A stretch of DNA of 64,000 bases from a virus: IMG/VR virus record IMGVR_UViG_3300034684_000292, positions 1-64,000 of that record; one strand, 5' to 3'. The position numbers and the translations under genes were made by a program. This document shows, one piece after another, positions 3,696 through 17,603 of the stretch. A model generated the notes under the pieces. It saw only the letters and a list, made by a program, of their open reading frames with translations. It was not told the origin of the DNA and did not search any database. Positions within the stretch are counted from its first letter, which is position 1. Every line of letters starts with the position of its first letter.

Positions 3696-4889
3696 TTAAT
3701 TGTTTATATAGTCATTTCCATCTGTATCCGTATAATCATTAGTTCCATCAGTTAGCCCATAAAAAGCACCCTTTTGTTCGGTTTTTACGTATATGTCCAT
3801 CCAATCGTCAAGATATGTATTTCCTATACCTGTGCGATTAAGTTCAACTACAACTTTACTTCCCTCCTGCCACTCCATTTCATCAATGGTAGCCGTATCG
3901 GTGTACCAAACCATCCGTAAAATTGGTTCCGGAATACGGACAATCTCACCATTAAAGTGTACCATAGCAAAATTTCTATGTAATGTTTCGCCTGGATTGA
4001 TTGAAACAGCACTCATCGGTTCAATCGAGAACGGAGGATAAACACGTACAACGGAACATTGCTGCCTTGCAACTTCCCTTGTACCTTCTTTGATTAATAT
4101 AAGAAAATCTCCTTTTTCTATTGTCCGTAAATCGAACACAATTGAAGTAAGCCCTATCGAAATAACTTCTAAATCAAACTCAGACATAGGTGTAAGCGTT
4201 TGACCCGTAATTCTATATAGCTCAACTGTATATCCCGATGTTACCTGTTGTGAACCCTTTGTTACTAATAGATTAATTCTTCGTTCATAAGAATTTCCGT
4301 CAATAGCATTAGACCTTTCACCCGCATCTATTCCATTTGCTACTTTATAATCATACATTAGTAGCTTATCAAGAAACGGGTTATATTTCATTACAGGGTC
4401 ATCTCCAATAGACAATTCATAAGTATCATCAACCTTATCTAATGTACTTAATAAAATTGTCTCGGTTTTAATAGGTACGTTTATTCCTGTCCTCATATCA
4501 GGTAAAACCGCCTCAAAATGTAGTTCAACCTTCTCTTCAACAGGTATATTACGAAAGATTGTTATAGCCCCACGATTATCTCCTGTGCCCTCGATACTAT
4601 ACAATCCATTCCATGCTGACAACGTGGAAATATCAACATTATTTACAAACCATTTCATTGATGCTAATAACCTATTAGCAATATGAGCTGTCCAACTACC
4701 ATCTGAAGCATCAGCAAGCACCTTAGGAAGAATGGCGAGAGGAGTTATACTCCTGTCCGGGATGTATTCATTTTGAACAGGGTCATATACCTGACTGCTC
4801 GGGCTCGCAGGCGTGAGAATCTTTAAACTTACCGCAGTTGTCAATGGCTGGTATTCTCGCCTAATTCGTTTTTTGTTTTCTACTATCAT
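3696..4889 (-). CDS. Tail structural protein, beta-rich
   Basis: A 397-residue beta-rich protein, starting at 4889 with a 4-base overlap with the upstream 519-residue tail gene (ATGA-type coupling). The basic N-terminus (residues 1-15) is followed by repeated strands and a C-terminal Asp/Thr/Asn-rich tail. No catalytic motif or membrane segment is present. It sits in a run of fibre-type proteins and is best called a tail fibre or distal baseplate structural protein. I cannot name a family. Confidence 0.7.
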   Translation of the reverse strand: MIVENKKRIRREYQPLTTAVSLKILTPASPSSQVYDPVQNEYIPDRSITPLAILPKVLADASDGSWTAHIANRLLASMKWFVNNVDISTLSAWNGLYSIEGTGDNRGAITIFRNIPVEEKVELHFEAVLPDMRTGINVPIKTETILLSTLDKVDDTYELSIGDDPVMKYNPFLDKLLMYDYKVANGIDAGERSNAIDGNSYERRINLLVTKGSQQVTSGYTVELYRITGQTLTPMSEFDLEVISIGLTSIVFDLRTIEKGDFLILIKEGTREVARQQCSVVRVYPPFSIEPMSAVSINPGETLHRNFAMVHFNGEIVRIPEPILRMVWYTDTATIDEMEWQEGSKVVVELNRTGIGNTYLDDWMDIYVKTEQKGAFYGLTDGTNDYTDTDGNDYINN

Positions 4890-6445
4890 ATTGTTAAGTT
4901 CATTATTGCCGTTTCACTTCCTGACGAAGCAACAAATCTAAACAGAGTACTTATACCTGCTCCTAAATCAGAGTAGGTTTGAGTATGCTGAAGAGTTATA
5001 TGGCCGTTAAAATCCTGATGTGCTATGTTCCATGCATCATCCTCCGCTTGATTGCCGCTTTCCCTTGTTACCTGCCATTCCTCAACCTCTGCAGTAACAT
5101 CGTCTAACCCCTTCATCACCTTGCAGGTTATATCCATGCTTTCGCCAAATGCAAGAAAATTGTCGCCTCCATTATCTATAATGAGTTCATACGGTGCATT
5201 TACTATTTGCTGAAGGTGACCATAGAAATAACCGTTACCAATTACCTGTCCACTACCCGTAAAGTTAGTGCCACCCAAATGAAATCCGTCAAGCTTTCCT
5301 TCTATACCATAGATGTTATTCTCTCCGTATTCCCATGTAGTCATATTACGGAGACGGATGGAATATTCCGTAGTGGAATAAGAACAAGCTTGTCTATCAG
5401 GATTAGTAGGATTAGCATAGCACGCAAAGTGCATGAAAGGCTTCGGGTGATTAAGTTGAGTCCATCTTTCCGATGTTCCTCTTAATACATACCTGAATTG
5501 TCCATTTGTAGCTGTATCGAGTATCTCCGTTATCCTGAAATAGCTCGTGTTAAATCCCTGTATGTGAAAATTACCATTGCGTTGGTCTTCGCTCTCCGTA
5601 TCATTTTGTCCATCGAAATTGTGATAGATACCCTGACACAAATCGTCAACATCGATAGCGCCAAATTCCCCGTCTTCCAATTTTAAAGTAATAATTCCAC
5701 TTTGAAGCTCATTTCCATTTTCGTCCTTATCTATCTCTACCGATTCGATTATACCAGCACCAAACGTTTGCCAATAAACTCCGGTATATACAAGCGTTCT
5801 ATTATATCTCAATTCCGGCACTTCGAGAAATTCCCACAGCCGAAGACTCCGCAATTCTGCTGCTCCATTCTCATCAATTCTACCACCACTGCCAAGCAAT
5901 CCGGGAATGTAATTTCCAATCTTAATCCCATCTAAGAATGTAATAACCTTTTGTGCTATATCTTCAATATCTTTCCGCAGATATTTGGCATCAGGCTGAT
6001 TCTCTACGATACTCAAAAAGTTCTTAGCCTGTTCGGCAGTCATGTGAACATCCCTTGCAGTTTCGGGAATATCCAAATCTCCAATTGCCCTTATATCTTC
6101 AAGTTGTTGATGTGAGGTAGCCGAGAAAGCATACATAAATGTCCAACCACCCTCAATTCTCCTGTAAAAACCTCTTCGTGCAGGGTCTGGGTCTTCGAGT
6201 ACGGAAACAAGTTCTCCGTTCTTCAACGGATAACCATCATCTCTTATAGGATTAAATCTGTCGGCTATCATTGCATCAAAGTTTGCATAAACTTTTGACA
6301 CACGTAAATATTGCAAGTTATTTAATCTAACCCACAATTCGTTTACACCTTCGGGGCCTATTGTCAAGTCATAAAACGACTTGTTTATTTTTGCCCTTAC
6401 AGATAAACCTTTTTCACCATTATAAATAGGGTCGTACTCTGTCAT
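4886..6445 (-). CDS. Large tail fibre/baseplate-associated protein with C-terminal Ig-like domain
   Basis: A protein of about 519 residues. The N-terminal segment MTEYDPIYNGEKGLSVR looks like a conserved attachment region. A helical segment follows (about residues 110-165), then extended beta-rich sequence, and the C-terminal 90 residues look like an Ig-like sandwich. The frame can be extended upstream to a TTG at 6475, adding 10 residues; I prefer the ATG at 6445 because TTG starts are rare in such hosts. A structural role in the host-contacting tail is inferred from size, composition and neighbours. It is the first long gene of the fibre module. Confidence 0.72.
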   Translation of the reverse strand: MTEYDPIYNGEKGLSVRAKINKSFYDLTIGPEGVNELWVRLNNLQYLRVSKVYANFDAMIADRFNPIRDDGYPLKNGELVSVLEDPDPARRGFYRRIEGGWTFMYAFSATSHQQLEDIRAIGDLDIPETARDVHMTAEQAKNFLSIVENQPDAKYLRKDIEDIAQKVITFLDGIKIGNYIPGLLGSGGRIDENGAAELRSLRLWEFLEVPELRYNRTLVYTGVYWQTFGAGIIESVEIDKDENGNELQSGIITLKLEDGEFGAIDVDDLCQGIYHNFDGQNDTESEDQRNGNFHIQGFNTSYFRITEILDTATNGQFRYVLRGTSERWTQLNHPKPFMHFACYANPTNPDRQACSYSTTEYSIRLRNMTTWEYGENNIYGIEGKLDGFHLGGTNFTGSGQVIGNGYFYGHLQQIVNAPYELIIDNGGDNFLAFGESMDITCKVMKGLDDVTAEVEEWQVTRESGNQAEDDAWNIAHQDFNGHITLQHTQTYSDLGAGISTLFRFVASSGSETAIMNLTI

Positions 6446-6789: not shown

Positions 6790-6821
6790 CAAAGATAACT
6801 AATTTATTTATTGCCTACAAA
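6790..6821 (-). promoter_or_regulatory. Bacteroidetes-type promoter upstream of the tail-fibre unit
   Basis: Read on the minus strand, TTTG (6821-6818) is followed after 20 bp by TATCTTTG (6797-6790), an exact match to the -33 TTTG / -7 TAnnTTTG arrangement. It overlaps the last codons of queE and would start transcription near 6784, about 25 bases before the ATG at 6760. Confidence 0.7.
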
Positions 6822-7522
6822 TTTCTCGGAATAAATAAATCGGATAATTCCGACCTGTTTTTATCGTACAGAATAGCCATTTTATGAATTTGCATGTTTA
6901 TATCCACATCGAGGTTATCCTCAAATATTTTGTTCAGAAGTTCTATGTATCCCATTTTAGAACCCCAGAATAATCCGGCAGTTCTGTGAGAAACTTTGTT
7001 TTCCAGAGTTTTATAGAAATTCTTCATAAATTGATAGTCTTTTTCATCGTAAATTACAAACTTGAAGTAATCGTTCTTACCCATGAATTTGTAATTCTCA
7101 GATAGCATTCTGTGGTTTTCACCCGTACTCGGCCCTTTCACATCCAAAATAATAAATACATTATCAAATTCCTTGTACTTCTCAATCTTCATTGAACCGT
7201 TTGTTTCGATAACTACATTTATTCCTTCATCCTTAAAAGAACCAAGTAAATCTCCTACTTTTTGCAAAAGAGGTTCTCCACCTGTAAGACATACAAGTTT
7301 TACGTTGTATTTCTTTACTTCATTTACTATCTCCTCTTCGGACATAACCTTACCGCTCCCAATTTCGAGCGCTTCGGGAGTATCACAAAGAGTCCCAAAT
7401 GTTTTCTTGTAACAACGTATGTTACAACCGGCCAATCTTACGAACACGCACTTGGCTCCCATCCCGAAGGGATTAACCTCTCCCATAAATGCGGGATAAA
7501 TTGTATTAATTCTAAGCGACAT
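6815..7522 (-). CDS. queE: 7-carboxy-7-deazaguanine synthase (QueE), radical SAM
   Basis: QueE converts 6-carboxy-tetrahydropterin to 7-carboxy-7-deazaguanine, the third step of preQ0 synthesis. The 235-residue protein has the N-terminal FVRLAGCNIRC segment, three cysteines for the [4Fe-4S] cluster (C33, C37, C46) and the CDTPEAL sequence typical of QueE. The SAM-binding TGGEPLL motif is at residues 80-86. The second and third cysteines are eight residues apart instead of the usual two, so the cluster loop is longer than in textbook QueE. It overlaps the upstream 150-residue gene by 11 bases and closes an operon with queC and dpdA. In this phage it should supply preQ0 for DNA modification. 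Confidence 0.92.
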   Translation of the reverse strand: MSLRINTIYPAFMGEVNPFGMGAKCVFVRLAGCNIRCYKKTFGTLCDTPEALEIGSGKVMSEEEIVNEVKKYNVKLVCLTGGEPLLQKVGDLLGSFKDEGINVVIETNGSMKIEKYKEFDNVFIILDVKGPSTGENHRMLSENYKFMGKNDYFKFVIYDEKDYQFMKNFYKTLENKVSHRTAGLFWGSKMGYIELLNKIFEDNLDVDINMQIHKMAILYDKNRSELSDLFIPRNL

Positions 7523-7964
7523 AAATAAATTCCTCTTTAGTTAAATATGGTTTGAACTCCAATAATCTGTTTTTGTACACTCCTACAAAGTACCCAATAG
7601 CTATTACGATTACTTCTCTCAGATAATCCTGTTTTTTGTAAGTTTCCAAAAAATTGAGTAGTCTTGTTTGTCTTTCATCAACCGACTGCTCAAGATACTT
7701 TTCAACATTTTCCCTGTTTCTCCGCAACTCTATATGAGAACGTATAGAAAGCGCATAAGTTTGAAGCTCGTAAAAATTTACCATTTCTGCCAATGCAGCC
7801 GTTATAAGTGCCTTGTTATTGGTTGCATAAATTTTATCGAGCTCCACAGTTATTTTTCTTTTCGATTGATTGAGTACTTTCTCGAATTGTTCCCTGTTTT
7901 CGGCTTTTTTCATATCGTTGTACTCAACTACTGCTCCGACTAAACTGTTATACAGTGTATCCAT
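7512..7964 (-). CDS. Hypothetical helical protein between queE and dpdA
   Basis: A 150-residue, almost entirely helical, charged protein with no Cys cluster and no signal peptide. A moderately hydrophobic segment near residues 115-130 (VIVIAIGYFVGVY) could be a buried helix or a weak membrane segment. It overlaps both queE (11 bases) and the next basic gene (17 bases), so it is translated in the deazaguanine operon. No family is recognised, and whether it takes part in modification is unknown. Confidence 0.65.
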   Translation of the reverse strand: MDTLYNSLVGAVVEYNDMKKAENREQFEKVLNQSKRKITVELDKIYATNNKALITAALAEMVNFYELQTYALSIRSHIELRRNRENVEKYLEQSVDERQTRLLNFLETYKKQDYLREVIVIAIGYFVGVYKNRLLEFKPYLTKEEFIYVA

Positions 7965-8310
7965 TTTTACTCTTCTTTTTTAGTATTCTGTTTATTTTCT
8001 TAATCCTTCGTGTCAATAGACCAAATTTTCTCGGAGGTAGTATGTCTCTTCCTTCAAGACCATCTTTTAAATCATTCTGCAATTTAAGTTTTTCTCTAAT
8101 TAATCTCTCATGCGACCAACTTTCCTTAGGTGCATTTGGATAATCGTCATGTTTCCAAAAACCATCCACAAAAACTTGTTTCTTACCCTTATACACTCTG
8201 TGTGTTTTAGAGATATATTGAGTGTCTCCAATATTTCTGAGATGTTTTCTTATAACACTCTTTTTATTTTTTCCGCTTCGTAAGTGTTGTTTTACATTAG
8301 TTTGTTTCAT
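7948..8310 (-). CDS. Small basic hypothetical protein in the deazaguanine operon
   Basis: A 120-residue protein, strongly basic throughout (Lys/Arg/His-rich), with charged helices at its C-terminus. The composition suggests nucleic-acid or virion contact. It overlaps the upstream Cys-rich gene by 14 bases and the downstream helical gene by 17 bases, as expected for translational coupling. No recognised domain. Confidence 0.62.
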   Translation of the reverse strand: MKQTNVKQHLRSGKNKKSVIRKHLRNIGDTQYISKTHRVYKGKKQVFVDGFWKHDDYPNAPKESWSHERLIREKLKLQNDLKDGLEGRDILPPRKFGLLTRRIKKINRILKKKSKNGYTV

Positions 8311-9058
8311 TTCGTTTGCTCTTTCGTGAAACTTTTACCTTTTCGGGTATTTCTTCAAAGTCGGTAACCTCACCAATATCCTTACGTGAATCTGCTACTT
8401 CCTCAATTTCTATTGGTTTAGATTCCTCAATTGCAGGTTTGGAACTTCCACCGAATATCTTGGCAAGTATTCCACCGCCTGTATCGGATGCTCTACCTGT
8501 TGCAGTTACGTTAAGTGAGAATTTTTCTCTTTCGGAATCGATTTTCATTCCCACCAATCCCAACAATCGGTCAATTTCTGAGGATAACCCCACATCTGGA
8601 ACTCCTCCGTCAAGTTTTTCATACAAAGATGCTCTCTGAACTCTTTCATATTGCAATTTAGTCATAAAATCAATCATTCCCGTAGCATCCTTTGGTCTGT
8701 TTTCGCCCCAATCTATTACACATTCATGGTCTTTTCTGTACATCGGGCATTTATCGAATATGTAACAAGTATTACAATTTATTCCCATGCCCAAATCATT
8801 CATGGAAATTTTAGTATCTCTCTTTATTATAGCAACAATATCAAACTCCTCACTCCATATATCCATAGGGTGAGTTTTGATATTTTCCAGATAAACATCC
8901 TTGCATTCCTCAAGGTCTTCCATTGTTTGTTTGCAGGTAATGCAATCCGGAAAATTTCCTTTCTGAAAGAACGGACACAGATGTTTCTTTAAATCCTCTT
9001 CTGTATCCGCACTTTTTATCAATGCTATTCTGCTTGCTATACTATCACTTATTTTCAT
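8297..9058 (-). CDS. Cys-rich putative zinc-binding protein with acidic C-terminal tail
   Basis: This 253-residue protein has two cysteine clusters in its first 115 residues: a CPFF...DCITC group near residues 28-42, and a CNTC-x5-CP-x7-C group near 95-113. These look like two structural metal sites. The middle holds a helical segment with QYERVQRASLYEKLDGG (about residues 135-151), which looks like a conserved functional core. The last 60 residues are low-complexity Glu/Lys/Ser. It overlaps dpdA by 14 bases. I cannot assign a family. A DNA-binding adaptor or a small-terminase-like protein are guesses from the metal sites and charged tail. Confidence 0.65.
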   Translation of the reverse strand: MKISDSIASRIALIKSADTEEDLKKHLCPFFQKGNFPDCITCKQTMEDLEECKDVYLENIKTHPMDIWSEEFDIVAIIKRDTKISMNDLGMGINCNTCYIFDKCPMYRKDHECVIDWGENRPKDATGMIDFMTKLQYERVQRASLYEKLDGGVPDVGLSSEIDRLLGLVGMKIDSEREKFSLNVTATGRASDTGGGILAKIFGGSSKPAIEESKPIEIEEVADSRKDIGEVTDFEEIPEKVKVSRKSKRNETN

Positions 9059-10010
9059 AGTAAGAAACTACCTTATTGGTAAGTTTTAAGTTTGCATATT
9101 TAAGTACCTCTTTACGGAATCCCATCCAACCGAGTAAATTCATTTTGTTTATGGAAGTTCTGTCCTCAGTTTTAGTTACTTTATCGATATCAACTCCGAT
9201 TTGTTCATACGCATACCTGTTTGCTTTTCGCAAATATTTTCTTTTGTAATCTATGGTTCTAAAATTTTTTCCGTCATAATCATACGTTGTACCGAAACGT
9301 ACCCCACCTAACCACGTTACAGAATCCGCAGAAAAGAATGGGTATCTTTTAAGTAAATCAAATTCAGTCCATGCAAATCCATGTATTCTCCTGTTATAAT
9401 ACTTGGCTAATTGGTATATTTTTGCTGCTTGTTCCTTATGAACCTGATTAACTCCCACATACTCATATCTCTTCATGTAATATTTCAGTGAATCCAATAT
9501 AGTAGAATAAACATTTCCTTCATGCGCAACATATACAATTTGTATCCCATCTTTCTCCAACGGTTCAAAGTATTTTTGGTTCCACTTATGTACAACTTCC
9601 TGACCTACAATAGAATCAATATCCAAATTAGCTGCACAAAAAATATACTTTTTATGCTCCCTAATCCAAGCAATATACTCCTCCAAATAAGGAATCCAGA
9701 ACTTTTCATGCCTTGCTTCTTCATATTCGGGAGTACCTTCTCCAAATTTGGAAGCAAAAGAAAATGCTCCTGAATCCGTCATAAATAAACCCCCTTGTTC
9801 TTTTATCAAAGGTAACATTTTATCGTAATATTCGAGACTTTTCTTCAAATAAAAATACGAAACAAGCATCTCCCGTATTCCAAAATCGTAAAGCTGTTGA
9901 AAATCTCCTGTTGATGAAGCCGAGAAAAACAATACAGATTTATTTTTGTGTTTTGAATAAGCGGTGAGCTCTTTTGATTTCCTCGTAGTATAACCTCGAA
10001 TACTGCTCAT
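9045..10010 (-). CDS. dpdA: DpdA-like DNA 7-deazaguanine transglycosylase
   Basis: Phage DpdA proteins are relatives of tRNA-guanine transglycosylase that swap guanine in DNA for a 7-deazaguanine base. This protein of about 321 residues has the TGT-like MTDSGAFSF motif (Asp near residue 79), corresponding to the DSGGFQ active-site loop. It also has HGFAWTEFDLLKRYPFFSAD followed by SVTW, whose Asp (near 229) sits where the nucleophile is expected. The barrel segments KYIFCAANLDID and VYVAHEGNV are present. The usual C-terminal zinc-binding and PUA RNA-binding parts of tRNA TGT appear absent, which fits a DNA substrate. The frame opens at a TTG two codons earlier (10016); I use the ATG at 10010, which leaves a 71-base overlap with queC. 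Confidence 0.88.
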   Translation of the reverse strand: MSSIRGYTTRKSKELTAYSKHKNKSVLFFSASSTGDFQQLYDFGIREMLVSYFYLKKSLEYYDKMLPLIKEQGGLFMTDSGAFSFASKFGEGTPEYEEARHEKFWIPYLEEYIAWIREHKKYIFCAANLDIDSIVGQEVVHKWNQKYFEPLEKDGIQIVYVAHEGNVYSTILDSLKYYMKRYEYVGVNQVHKEQAAKIYQLAKYYNRRIHGFAWTEFDLLKRYPFFSADSVTWLGGVRFGTTYDYDGKNFRTIDYKRKYLRKANRYAYEQIGVDIDKVTKTEDRTSINKMNLLGWMGFRKEVLKYANLKLTNKVVSYYENK

Positions 10011-10659
10011 CTTCAATTAATTTATAAGTGTATATAAAATCGTCTTCGGTTATGGGACTATCAAATAGTCGATGTTCATAGATTCCGTTATTGATTAAAG
10101 CTACTGCCCGATTAAAACAAACTCTGCATCTTCCACAACCTTTATCGGATACTCCGGAATAACAAGAACGAGCTTCCTGTATAAGTTTTACAGGCATTCC
10201 TTTTTCAATGGCAAGTGCAACCATCTCGGTTTTTGTCTTATCCTGAAATGGTGCATAAAATCCATAATTCTCATTTTTCCATCCCATATCCATGATACAG
10301 TTCTTATTTAGATGTTCAAACATCTTGTTTATATCTCTGATAAACTTTTTATCCTTATCGGGAGCATCATCATGTTTATTAAATCCAAAATAAACATGTT
10401 GTCCATACTGCATACCAATAGTTCCGAGCAATAAATTCCTGTAAGGAAGATAACTGTTTGCTCTTTCATATTCCCCTATCGGAAGTTCCTTTATAATAAG
10501 TCTGTTTTGATACCTTTTAGGTAGTGTATGTAAATGTTCAATCTCTTTTTGTGAATATACAGTTTTCATATCCACATACAACAATACATTAGGTCTTATA
10601 AGCCATTCCTGTAATAAGGAATCGAAGCCTCCCGAAAATAATAAAACTTTCTTTTCCAT
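9940..10659 (-). CDS. queC: 7-cyano-7-deazaguanine synthase (QueC), preQ0 synthesis
   Basis: QueC uses ATP and ammonia to turn 7-carboxy-7-deazaguanine into preQ0. The 239-residue protein has the PP-loop SGGFDS at residues 9-14, the YLPYRNLLL segment at 70-78 typical of QueC, and a four-cysteine zinc site (C166, C175, C178, C181) in the SCYSGVSDKGCGRCRVC stretch. It is the first gene of the queC-dpdA-(three unknown genes)-queE operon and overlaps dpdA by about 70 bases. A terminator hairpin (10699..10725) separates it from the histone-like peptide gene upstream. No clear promoter lies between that hairpin and the start, so readthrough may matter. Confidence 0.92.
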   Translation of the reverse strand: MEKKVLLFSGGFDSLLQEWLIRPNVLLYVDMKTVYSQKEIEHLHTLPKRYQNRLIIKELPIGEYERANSYLPYRNLLLGTIGMQYGQHVYFGFNKHDDAPDKDKKFIRDINKMFEHLNKNCIMDMGWKNENYGFYAPFQDKTKTEMVALAIEKGMPVKLIQEARSCYSGVSDKGCGRCRVCFNRAVALINNGIYEHRLFDSPITEDDFIYTYKLIEDEQYSRLYYEEIKRAHRLFKTQK

Positions 10660-10981: not shown

Positions 10982-11254
10982 TTATACTCTGTGATAAATA
11001 ATTCTCAGGTCTATTGCAGTAACACCGTCTTCGGAAGTTTGAAATGATGGTTGTATTCCCAACACAATTCCTGTTTTAATAAAAAATTTATTTGCAAGAA
11101 TAACTCCTTTTACCGCCTGATTTAGTGCTCCAGCTCCTATAACCCTTATGACAATAGGGGTTGTGGGGTCTTTTTTCCACAGCCCATGAATACTCCCCGA
11201 TAGTCTTTTTGCATCCGTTGATGTTTTACATCTAAGTTCGTACCTTTCATCCAT
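10982..11254 (-). CDS. spoVS: SpoVS-family protein (Alba superfamily)
   Basis: This 90-residue protein matches the whole length of stage V sporulation protein S. A basic N-terminal strand is followed by VIRVIGAGALNQAVKGVILA at residues 35-54, which carries the family signature GAGALNQAVKA, and a C-terminal VTAIDLRI strand. SpoVS proteins have an Alba-like fold and are thought to bind nucleic acid. In Firmicutes they influence sporulation, and other bacteria use them as regulators. Here the gene precedes the histone-like peptide, so a nucleoid or regulatory role on phage or host DNA is plausible. A weaker promoter (11284..11315) lies upstream. Confidence 0.85.
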   Translation of the reverse strand: MDERYELRCKTSTDAKRLSGSIHGLWKKDPTTPIVIRVIGAGALNQAVKGVILANKFFIKTGIVLGIQPSFQTSEDGVTAIDLRIIYHRV

Positions 11255-14368: not shown

Positions 14369-16399
14369 TTATACTATATAATTCTTTGCGTTTTGCAGGG
14401 TAGCTTTCTTTATTACTTTTCCCAAATCAAAAGCAAGACTACTCATATCCGAAAGTATTACGTAGTGAGTAAACATTGTCTTGGGGTCATACGAAGGGTT
14501 AATACATACCTGAACAACCGAAAATCCTTTCTTTTCAACTTTTTGAACACTCACTTTTGTATGCTCAACCGCCGAAAGTCCCCCATAACCATCTGCACAT
14601 GGAGCTCCATCGGAAAGGATAAAAAACAATGCAGGTAAATTTGTTTGTTTTCTAACTCTTGCAGCAACTTCCATAATTGCAGTTCCGTCTCTGTTTTGAG
14701 AATATGCGGCTACAGAACCGAGTGCATATTTGGGGTGGTAACCTTTTTCTCTGTAAACACTCAACTCTGTTGCACCCGAATATCGTATATCTCCTGTATG
14801 TCCATAGATGTATAACTCTACATTCGATATTTTACCTACCGCTTCATTAATTAAAACCGCAGTATCCCTTGCAGCAACAATCCTACTTCCATCCATTGAA
14901 CCACTCTCATCGATTAAAACAACGATTGCAACTTTATCCGTTTTTACTTCTCCTTCCCGTATATAAACATTTGGAACTCCTTGATATGCTTCCGCAAGTT
15001 TGTTAGTATCGAGTAGTCCGTGTCGCATACCTCTGTGTATGTATTTATACTCCCGATTGTTTCCTTTCAATACCTTAGAAATTGCAGGAACAAATCTCCG
15101 AACCCTACTTAAAGAATCCATGTATTTTTCCTTGTTATCCTTTCGTTTTGAAAAGAAACTGTCTTTTGAAGAACCTCTGTCGAGTGTACCTTCCAACTCT
15201 TCCGCAAATGTTGCTCCTTCTCTTGTTTTAAGTTCATCACTTACTTCATGAGATTTTGCACCAACATCCGCATCATCAGTAATCTTATCGAGCTTGGGAA
15301 TTATTTTCCGAGAATCACCCAACAATTTATCGAGCGCTTTTTCGGAAATTTCTTCGGGAGACATAGTTTTTACCTCACTACTTCCACTTCCCTTACCACC
15401 TTTACTACTTTCTCCTTCACCCTCACTTTCATCACTACCATCACTTTTGGAATCACTCGAACTTTTTCCACTTTCACTTCCTTCATCACTTCCACTTTCA
15501 GCATCCTCACCTTCACTACCCTCTTCACCAGAACCTTCGGAAGACATTTTTTTCTCCTCTTCCTCACGTAATTTTTCTACATAGAACTCCTTAAAAATTT
15601 CGTAAACACCTACTGCCGTATCAACAACATCTTCCGTATCCGTAGGATAAGGTAAAACTAAATCCTTAACTGTGGCCAAATGATAGCCGAAGAAAGTTAT
15701 ATTCTCTCTTTTAAGATACTTCGGATACCTTATAATATATAGGAAAGTGTTTATCAGTTTCTCAAGGTCAGTCATCTCCGATTCTCTCGGAACTACAAAA
15801 TCCAAATAGTATTGGTCGAAATAAAAGTACTTACTCTTTTCCAAGAAACGTGTCAATCCGGGTTTATCTTCCCCCAATAATTGTTCAATTCTCTCATCCT
15901 CTATAATATTTGCAAGGACTTTTATTATCTGTTTCTCATCATCGGAATAAGATTTGTAATCGAGTACCCTTGATAAACCTCCAAACTGTGTGTACCTCAA
16001 ATGGCATCCTTCGTGTATGGTAGTACCCAAGAATGTATCGATTCTTTCTCCTACGGAAAGTTCCTCATCATCAAACATCTTTGTTGATAGAGTAACCGTT
16101 TTCCCATCGGTAAACGAATCTTCACCTTTTGAAATTTTGATGTTAACCTTCATAGGAGGGTCAACTACCGCCATCATATCCTTTGCAAGGTCATAAGCAA
16201 GTCTTATAGCTTCTTTCTTGGTTGGCTCTTTTACAAAAAATGAGGAATAACTGTCATCCTCACCTAATGTTTTTTCCCAACCTAACCGATGTTTATCGGT
16301 GGCTCTAACGTATGTTTCTCCATCACGTTCAAACCAATCCTTCATCAAATCGTTTATATCCTCATCGGTTAACGTGTACGATTTATCTATTACTGACAT
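14369..16399 (-). CDS. VWA-domain protein with N-terminal HExxH metallopeptidase-like motif
   Basis: A 676-residue protein. Residues 129-133 read HEGCH (HExxH zinc-site type), with candidate third ligands in the EDERIEQ helix about 35 residues later. Residues about 285-350 are an extreme Ser/Glu/Gly/Asp linker. The C-terminal 200 residues are a von Willebrand A domain with the MIDAS motif VVLIDESGSMDGS. The layout matches metallopeptidase-VWA partners of MoxR ATPases and also resembles phage proteins annotated CobT-like. The MoxR-like ATPase gene ends 1 base before this start, so the two are almost certainly one chaperone machine. Its substrate is unknown. Confidence 0.82.
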   Translation of the reverse strand: MSVIDKSYTLTDEDINDLMKDWFERDGETYVRATDKHRLGWEKTLGEDDSYSSFFVKEPTKKEAIRLAYDLAKDMMAVVDPPMKVNIKISKGEDSFTDGKTVTLSTKMFDDEELSVGERIDTFLGTTIHEGCHLRYTQFGGLSRVLDYKSYSDDEKQIIKVLANIIEDERIEQLLGEDKPGLTRFLEKSKYFYFDQYYLDFVVPRESEMTDLEKLINTFLYIIRYPKYLKRENITFFGYHLATVKDLVLPYPTDTEDVVDTAVGVYEIFKEFYVEKLREEEEKKMSSEGSGEEGSEGEDAESGSDEGSESGKSSSDSKSDGSDESEGEGESSKGGKGSGSSEVKTMSPEEISEKALDKLLGDSRKIIPKLDKITDDADVGAKSHEVSDELKTREGATFAEELEGTLDRGSSKDSFFSKRKDNKEKYMDSLSRVRRFVPAISKVLKGNNREYKYIHRGMRHGLLDTNKLAEAYQGVPNVYIREGEVKTDKVAIVVLIDESGSMDGSRIVAARDTAVLINEAVGKISNVELYIYGHTGDIRYSGATELSVYREKGYHPKYALGSVAAYSQNRDGTAIMEVAARVRKQTNLPALFFILSDGAPCADGYGGLSAVEHTKVSVQKVEKKGFSVVQVCINPSYDPKTMFTHYVILSDMSSLAFDLGKVIKKATLQNAKNYIV

Positions 16400-16400
16400 A

Positions 16401-17603
16401 TTATCTCGCCGTTAATGCTTTATACACTGTACTTCTTTCACCTTCCAATTTTGTTCCTTCAAACAATGGAAGTATAACCAATTCCAACGATTTAATGAGT
16501 GGCCATCCATCAGACAGCAACTCTGCAACCATTAGAGTTTCCCTTGTCGAAATAGACGAACTCACTTCCTGTTTGGCATACATATTACGGATATTCTCCG
16601 CAATTCTTACCACATTGAGTGCATCACCTTTTCCAATACCCGTTCGTATTTGTAAGATTTGTTGCTCCTGGTCGGGTTTCAGATAGTCCAATTCAATCGG
16701 AAAAAACCTGTTCACAAGTGCCTTATCCATACTCATTGTACCCGTATATTCAGCTCCTATATTTGCAGTAGCAACAAAACAACAATCTTCATGAACAGGA
16801 ATTTGTCTTTTATCGGATGCACCTGCAATCTCGACAGGCAAACTTCTTCTGTCGTCCAAACACGGAAACAGAATATTGTTTGTAGTTACGGGAGCTCTCG
16901 ATAATTCGTCCAATAACAGAACTCCCTCTTCCTGTACATCCTGTGTAAACTTTGCGTAATCAAATACGGAAACACCTCCCTCAGCCAATCGGTGAACTCC
17001 GAGTAATCCTGCGACAGGGTCATACATAGAACCCATGTCATATACTCGGAAAGCCTTTCCAATTTTTGCGGCAGCAATTCTTACAAGGGATGTTTTACCA
17101 GAACCCGTAGGCCCGATTATCATTGTATTGATACCGTTTACGATATTTCTTATTAAAAGATACCAAATATCCCTGTCCACATAAAATCCTTCTTTAATAT
17201 CGGGAGGTGAAAGTGCCTCATTTCCGATAAGTTTTTCAAGATACGAACCTCTGCGTGCAGGTGGAGTGTCCGATGTATGTGCAGGTTCCGGTGCAGATAC
17301 GGTTGCACCTATGAATTTTGCATACGCTTCCAACATTTCCATAGGTGGTACATGTGAAGGTTCTCTGTATGCAGTTGTATCCGGCAAACACGGATAAATT
17401 TTTCCCGCAACATAAAATCCAGAACCTGCTTCCAAACTTTCTGTACCAAATACCGTTCCGACAGGATACATTGCTCTTATCGGTTTGTCGGCCTGCACAT
17501 TTAAGTTTTCGTTTATTGGCAAACCGTCTAATGTCTGACCTGCAATAGGTCTTAACCGTATGCGTGATTTCTCCGTAACGGTCTTCATAAAATAATACTT
17601 CAT
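16401..17603 (-). CDS. MoxR/CobS-like AAA+ ATPase
   Basis: A 400-residue AAA+ protein. The N-terminal 120 residues are a beta-rich, Pro-containing extension. The ATPase core has Walker A GPTGSGKT at 164-171, Walker B VLLLDE at 228-233, and sensor/arginine-finger sequence including FVATANIGAEYTGT and ALVNRFFPIEL. MoxR ATPases work with VWA proteins to insert metals or remodel protein complexes, and cobaltochelatase CobS is the best-known relative. Here it is 1 base from the VWA gene. Two adjacent start options (ATG at 17603 or 17588) differ by 5 residues. Confidence 0.87.
   Translation of the reverse strand: MKYYFMKTVTEKSRIRLRPIAGQTLDGLPINENLNVQADKPIRAMYPVGTVFGTESLEAGSGFYVAGKIYPCLPDTTAYREPSHVPPMEMLEAYAKFIGATVSAPEPAHTSDTPPARRGSYLEKLIGNEALSPPDIKEGFYVDRDIWYLLIRNIVNGINTMIIGPTGSGKTSLVRIAAAKIGKAFRVYDMGSMYDPVAGLLGVHRLAEGGVSVFDYAKFTQDVQEEGVLLLDELSRAPVTTNNILFPCLDDRRSLPVEIAGASDKRQIPVHEDCCFVATANIGAEYTGTMSMDKALVNRFFPIELDYLKPDQEQQILQIRTGIGKGDALNVVRIAENIRNMYAKQEVSSSISTRETLMVAELLSDGWPLIKSLELVILPLFEGTKLEGERSTVYKALTAR

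Follow-up and report, generated by a model that had tools for sequence, protein, structure and literature searches.

A predicted self-sufficient preQ0 DNA-modification gene set with a DpdA encoded by two genes in a Bacteroides-type gut phage

The closest described systems to the locus reported here are the group 2 phages of Hutinet 2019, Escherichia phage CAjan and Mycobacterium phage Rosebush, which encode FolE, QueD, QueE, QueC, and DpdA, have no amidotransferase, and carry dPreQ0 (PMC6884629). The modified base accounts for ~32% of G in CAjan and ~28% in Rosebush, and deletion of dpdA from CAjan results in the loss of both the base and restriction resistance (PMC6884629).

The DNA analyzed here, referred to as the window, spans bases 1-64,000 of a virus record of 70,847 bases. 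Five activities are encoded by the record as a whole, namely FolE, QueD, QueE, QueC, and a DpdA homologue, as judged by Pfam, PHROG, and NCBIfam matches (Table 1). A first-pass annotation had named QueC, DpdA, QueE, and QueD, and all four open reading frames were recovered at the coordinates it gave, all on the minus strand; their family-match E-values are far beyond chance, and their key residues are kept in relatives that are ~49-67% identical. In the queC-dpdA-queE operon that it proposed, three more conserved ORFs lie between DpdA and QueE, one of them being the other half of DpdA. FolE, QueD, and the cluster occur together also in OP172706, G003, and G004, and no near-identical phage records were found. 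A defence-system library yielded nothing beyond generic QueC/QatC and viperin cross-matches.

Table 1. Genes of the predicted modification set and their conserved neighbours (window positions unless stated otherwise).
Feature	Position	Strand	Match or context
FolE (GTP cyclohydrolase I)	67,276-67,941 of the 70,847-base record	minus	Pfam 9.9e-59
QueD, 6-carboxytetrahydropterin synthase, 177 aa	55405..55938	minus	Pfam PTPS 8.9e-31
SpoVS-like protein, upstream of queC	10982..11254	minus	Pfam SpoVS 8.3e-11; same place in L004, L005, L006, L009, L010
QueC, 7-cyano-7-deazaguanine (preQ0) synthase, 239 aa	9940..10659	minus	Pfam QueC 4.3e-18; PHROG 1550 9.8e-25
DpdA N-terminal half, TGT-like TIM barrel, ~300-323 aa	9045..10016	minus	PHROG 887 positions 7-260, 4.8e-31
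DpdA C-terminal half, separate protein, 253 aa	8297..9058	minus	PHROG 887 positions 364-495, 4.2e-20
Basic ORF, 120 aa, conserved in cluster	7948..8310	minus	Same position in BS162P1 and MT835482
Conserved cluster ORF, 150 aa	7512..7964	minus	Same position in L004, L005, L006, L009; family matches weak
QueE	6815..7522	minus	PHROG 2076 6.4e-27; NCBIfam QueE models, best 3.6e-40

The tail sheath gene gives the virus the look of a myovirus; among isolated phages, the closest relative has a Bacteroides host. A DUF3109 gene (L002 6732-7280) overlaps the end of folE and adjoins folE also in BS162P1 and in the record of L004. Among 14 control genomes, a DUF3109 match was found only in Bacteroides, which agrees with a Bacteroidota host. 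Elsewhere in the window, a DNA topoisomerase of the eukaryotic type (IB) is encoded by this phage at 60382-61137 (Pfam 4.4e-19), and a likely pair of CobT-like (vWA) and CobS-like (AAA+) genes, as in other phages, is located at 14369-17603.

The first-pass annotation had reported no FolE and had expected dihydroneopterin triphosphate to be supplied by the host. The former is true inside the window only, and folE is located past the window end. Since the phage has its own FolE, the expected need for the host compound falls away, and the full route from GTP to preQ0 (FolE, QueD, QueE, and QueC) is, as far as the genes indicate, phage-encoded and self-sufficient. QueC displays the PP-loop (SGGFDS) and the four-Cys zinc site (C166-x8-C175-x2-C178-x2-C181) ascribed to it, both conserved in relatives; in L012, a radical SAM domain is fused to QueC (4014-5735, 573 aa). 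QueD, whose gene immediately precedes that of the large terminase, likewise carries both motifs named for it, C-x3-HGH and FDH. It matches the solved QueD 4ntm at 1.1e-5 and the NCBIfam QueD model at 9e-20, with a score (70.9) under the curated cut-off of 89.25.

QueE matches the solved QueE 4njg at 2.1e-10. The GGEP motif was correctly predicted, but its radical SAM cysteines are spaced CX3CX8C (C33, C37, and C46), not CX3CX2C. The same spacing is found in L004, L005, L006, and L010, while L012, L013, and L014 have the usual one and the QueE of Cellulophaga phage phi38:2 has CX3CX6C. The family tolerates variants of its Cys motif, one of which, CX14CX2C, has an NCBIfam model of its own. Because the spacing is conserved, we regard the QueE of this phage as a rare spacing variant that is likely functional. 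In a wider search, the CX3CX8C pattern matched 37 viral contigs, by pattern alone for most, and the corresponding DNA pattern matched five contigs from bacteria, of which four are QueE-like, so the idea that the spacing is unique to these phages was rejected. QueE-like ORFs with this spacing occur in a few uncultured bacteria (L046, L047, L049, and L050); no QueE of the phage clade was confirmed in bacterial genomes.

The identity of the final base was approached through the later steps of the pathway. The first-pass annotation had seen neither QueF nor a Gat protein and had suggested searching the rest of the genome for folE, queF, and gat-queC, a search that returned folE and neither of the other two. 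More specifically, no QueF was found in the 70.8 kb record, which may be incomplete, the single QueC of the record has no Gat domain, and no Pfam TGT was found in the record. No amidotransferase family appeared among 51 further proteins of the record, and the scans made, whose models included none specific to ArcS, returned no ArcS or QueF-L family. With no QueF, TGT, or amidotransferase found, unreduced preQ0, the 7-cyano base proposed at the outset, is the best prediction, and dPreQ0 is favoured all the more because published phages with equal gene content carry it (PMC6884629).

The same pathway might instead end in a base other than preQ0, namely a 7-amido, 7-carboxy, or 7-deaza base or a new derivative, either through the specificity of DpdA, which is not readable from its sequence, or through an unrecognised gene whose product might act on preQ0. 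Numerous phage ORFs lack a family assignment, and two conserved ORFs without an assigned function travel with the cluster. The 120-residue ORF, for which no family match was found, differs from its counterpart in L003 by 11 synonymous and 0 nonsynonymous changes. Furthermore, L010 has a 2OG-Fe(II) oxygenase gene (9249-9842) between its DpdA halves, which makes further oxidation of the base possible there, and mixed bases were detected by MS in phage nt-1 (PMC6884629). Against such a product stand a QueC that is intact by motif, the lack of any detected QueF, Gat, or amidotransferase family, and the dPreQ0 of the phages just cited, so that we consider a different final base unlikely. As a separate observation, the cluster of L004 includes a DNA methylase (N6_N4_Mtase) gene (8817-9554), located between the C-terminal DpdA half and the homologue of the 150-residue ORF.

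The DSGAF and SADS motifs that had been recognised in DpdA are present; alignment supports a TGT-type active site, and structure prediction supports a barrel. Using hhalign, the barrel aligned with the DpdA proteins of CAjan, JenP1, and Bipper (probability 99.5, E 1.9e-22), with DSGAF, HGF, and S-DS in register. D81, H212, and D231 align with CAjan DpdA and are invariant in the clade with split DpdA plus L012/L013. Since the DpdA2 type is described as having no such His (PMC6884629), its conservation here speaks against that type. AlphaFold2 modelled the barrel with a pLDDT of 78.9 and a pTM of 0.78, and its structure neighbours in a viral library include several named queuine tRNA-ribosyltransferase. 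A fold search of the PDB returned general TIM barrels, and because TGT is absent from the top 50 neighbours, this search supports a barrel, not TGT specifically. A sequence search of the PDB with the barrel gave nothing meaningful, and the barrel ORF has no Pfam match.

The ORF that had been taken as DpdA encodes the barrel and is only half of the protein, the C-terminal half being the next ORF (Table 1; PHROG 887 has 509 positions). The start codon of the barrel gene is uncertain; the TTG listed gives a 77-base overlap with queC. A scan of viral contigs with the C-terminal part yielded 30 loci, among which L017 is the same contig as L004. In 28 of them (L018-L045, some near-duplicates), the barrel and C-terminal part are fused in one ORF of 472-583 aa; the other two, L003 and L017, belong to the split clade. 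L012 and L013 also have fused DpdAs, of 674 and 682 aa. Split DpdA was found in all seven members of one clade (the window, L003, L004, BS162P1, MT835482, L009, and L010), which is monophyletic with support of 100/100 and groups with L012/L013 at 92/91 in a barrel tree that is silent on the order of split and fusion. Comparison of the window with L003 gave a pN/pS of 0.04 in the barrel and of 0.05 in the C-terminal half, indicating strong purifying selection on both. By homology, the protein belongs to the DpdA family as an apparent split variant carried on two polypeptides, and we read the DpdA of this phage as a two-chain enzyme.

Two further features of DpdA were noted. In the fused DpdAs that were aligned (L018-L045, L007, and L008), Ser or Ala occupies the position of the nucleophile Asp (e.g. 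VSSTSW, TAASTSW), and for this reason their activity is doubtful, or another residue is used. The barrels of L004 and MT835482 harbour an intein of 423-424 aa that comprises splicing and LAGLIDADG domains and extends the ORF to 732 aa (L004 5974-8172 and L006 9004-11202). The insertion point lies immediately behind the Asp-Ser pair of the active site, whose Asp is the catalytic one. The window DpdA has no intein, and no paper naming an intein in DpdA was found in the open-access literature.

The C-terminal half, DpdA-C, contains a Cys4 set (C95-x2-C98-x5-C104-x8-C113), all four residues of which are invariant in 23 sequences, and a second set (C28, C38, C41, and C51) added by the split clade. 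On the basis of these cysteines, DpdA-C is predicted to bind a metal, probably zinc. None of 23 members had a Pfam match above noise, no PDB sequence match to a solved relative was obtained, and AlphaFold2 produced only a poor model (pLDDT 52), so that assigning DpdA-C to DNA binding or site choice is guesswork.

With its separate gene and a fold that could not be modelled, DpdA-C might be an independent protein that lies beside DpdA by chance and is no subunit of it. However, a barrel is present at every viral-scan locus with DpdA-C, nearly always in the same ORF, and both parts belong to the same PHROG family, which makes a chance neighbour improbable. In its strictest form, the two-chain reading proposes an obligate two-subunit DNA guanine transglycosylase in this Bacteroides-type phage clade, with a catalytic barrel and a metal-binding subunit for DNA binding or site choice, and we hold the chances of that to be about even.

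We consider it quite likely that the phage combines a self-sufficient preQ0 pathway with a two-chain DNA guanine transglycosylase that puts preQ0 into phage DNA. From the genes, their motifs, the completeness of the set, and the conserved split, we infer activity, two-chain assembly, base identity, and protection as follows. FolE, QueD, QueE, and QueC would produce preQ0 from GTP. The DpdA-N barrel, bearing the catalytic Asp residues, would then replace guanines of the phage DNA with preQ0 through base exchange, Asp231 being the nucleophile, while DpdA-C, with a metal (probably zinc) bound, may position the DNA or choose the sites. The preQ0 in phage DNA would probably hide it from restriction enzymes.

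That the genes serve to raise host queuosine in tRNA, with no modification of phage DNA, was proposed by Hutinet et al. for phages that have preQ0 genes without DpdA (PMC6884629), but it is very improbable here, given that a DpdA-family barrel, of the kind that CAjan requires to insert the base into its DNA, is retained in the window phage and in its relatives, and that no Pfam TGT was found in the record. Least credible is an assembly or sequencing error, or a joining of the halves by programmed frameshifting: the window ORFs do share 14 bases, read in different frames, but the split is conserved across seven records with junctions that vary between a 17-base overlap and a 911-base gap holding two genes, the latter in L010, where the oxygenase gene is one of the two and this explanation is refuted.

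If the obligate two-subunit enzyme is real, targeting could be uncoupled from catalysis, something that neither fused nor solo DpdAs permit. Cui et al. 2023 reportedly added DpdA3, DpdA4, and further bases. With the barrel and its Cys-rich partner naturally separate, the question of how DpdA selects the guanines to replace could be tested with two purified proteins. The gene set also widens the predicted occurrence of 7-deazaguanine DNA to gut phages of the Bacteroides type, for which no earlier report was found in the open-access literature, and modified bases may disturb the sequencing of such phages as well.

Compared with the group 2 phages, the window phage shares the same five activities, the lack of a detected QueF or amidotransferase, and the predicted base. 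In contrast, its genes are scattered, it is myovirus-like with its nearest isolated relative on Bacteroides, and its DpdA is encoded by two genes, whereas CAjan DpdA is one barrel of 306 residues without a C-terminal part. Cellulophaga phage phi38:2, which has a Bacteroidota host, likewise encodes FolE, QueC, QueD, QueE, and DpdA, but has QueF in addition and a DpdA of 240 aa without the C-terminal part. Streptomyces phages BRock and GiJojo and their uncultured relatives (PHROG 887) share the barrel and the same C-terminal Cys4 part, but on one polypeptide of ~500 aa with Ser in place of the nucleophile Asp; around dpdA of BRock and GiJojo, the stretches read contain no annotated preQ0 genes. 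L012 and L013, sister to the split clade, keep the Asp and lie beside FolE, QueD, QueE, and a QueC-like ORF, but have a single polypeptide with ~200 extra residues mid-protein and a canonical QueE motif. Bacteroides phage BS162P1 (OP172706) carries a split DpdA with a barrel 66% identical to that of the window and the full gene set; its proteins are deposited as hypothetical proteins, and no report on its DNA chemistry was found in the open-access literature. As a whole, the genes are best described as a complete predicted set for preQ0 modification of DNA that belongs to a known kind, that of Hutinet group 2 with dPreQ0, and in which the two-gene DpdA is what is new.
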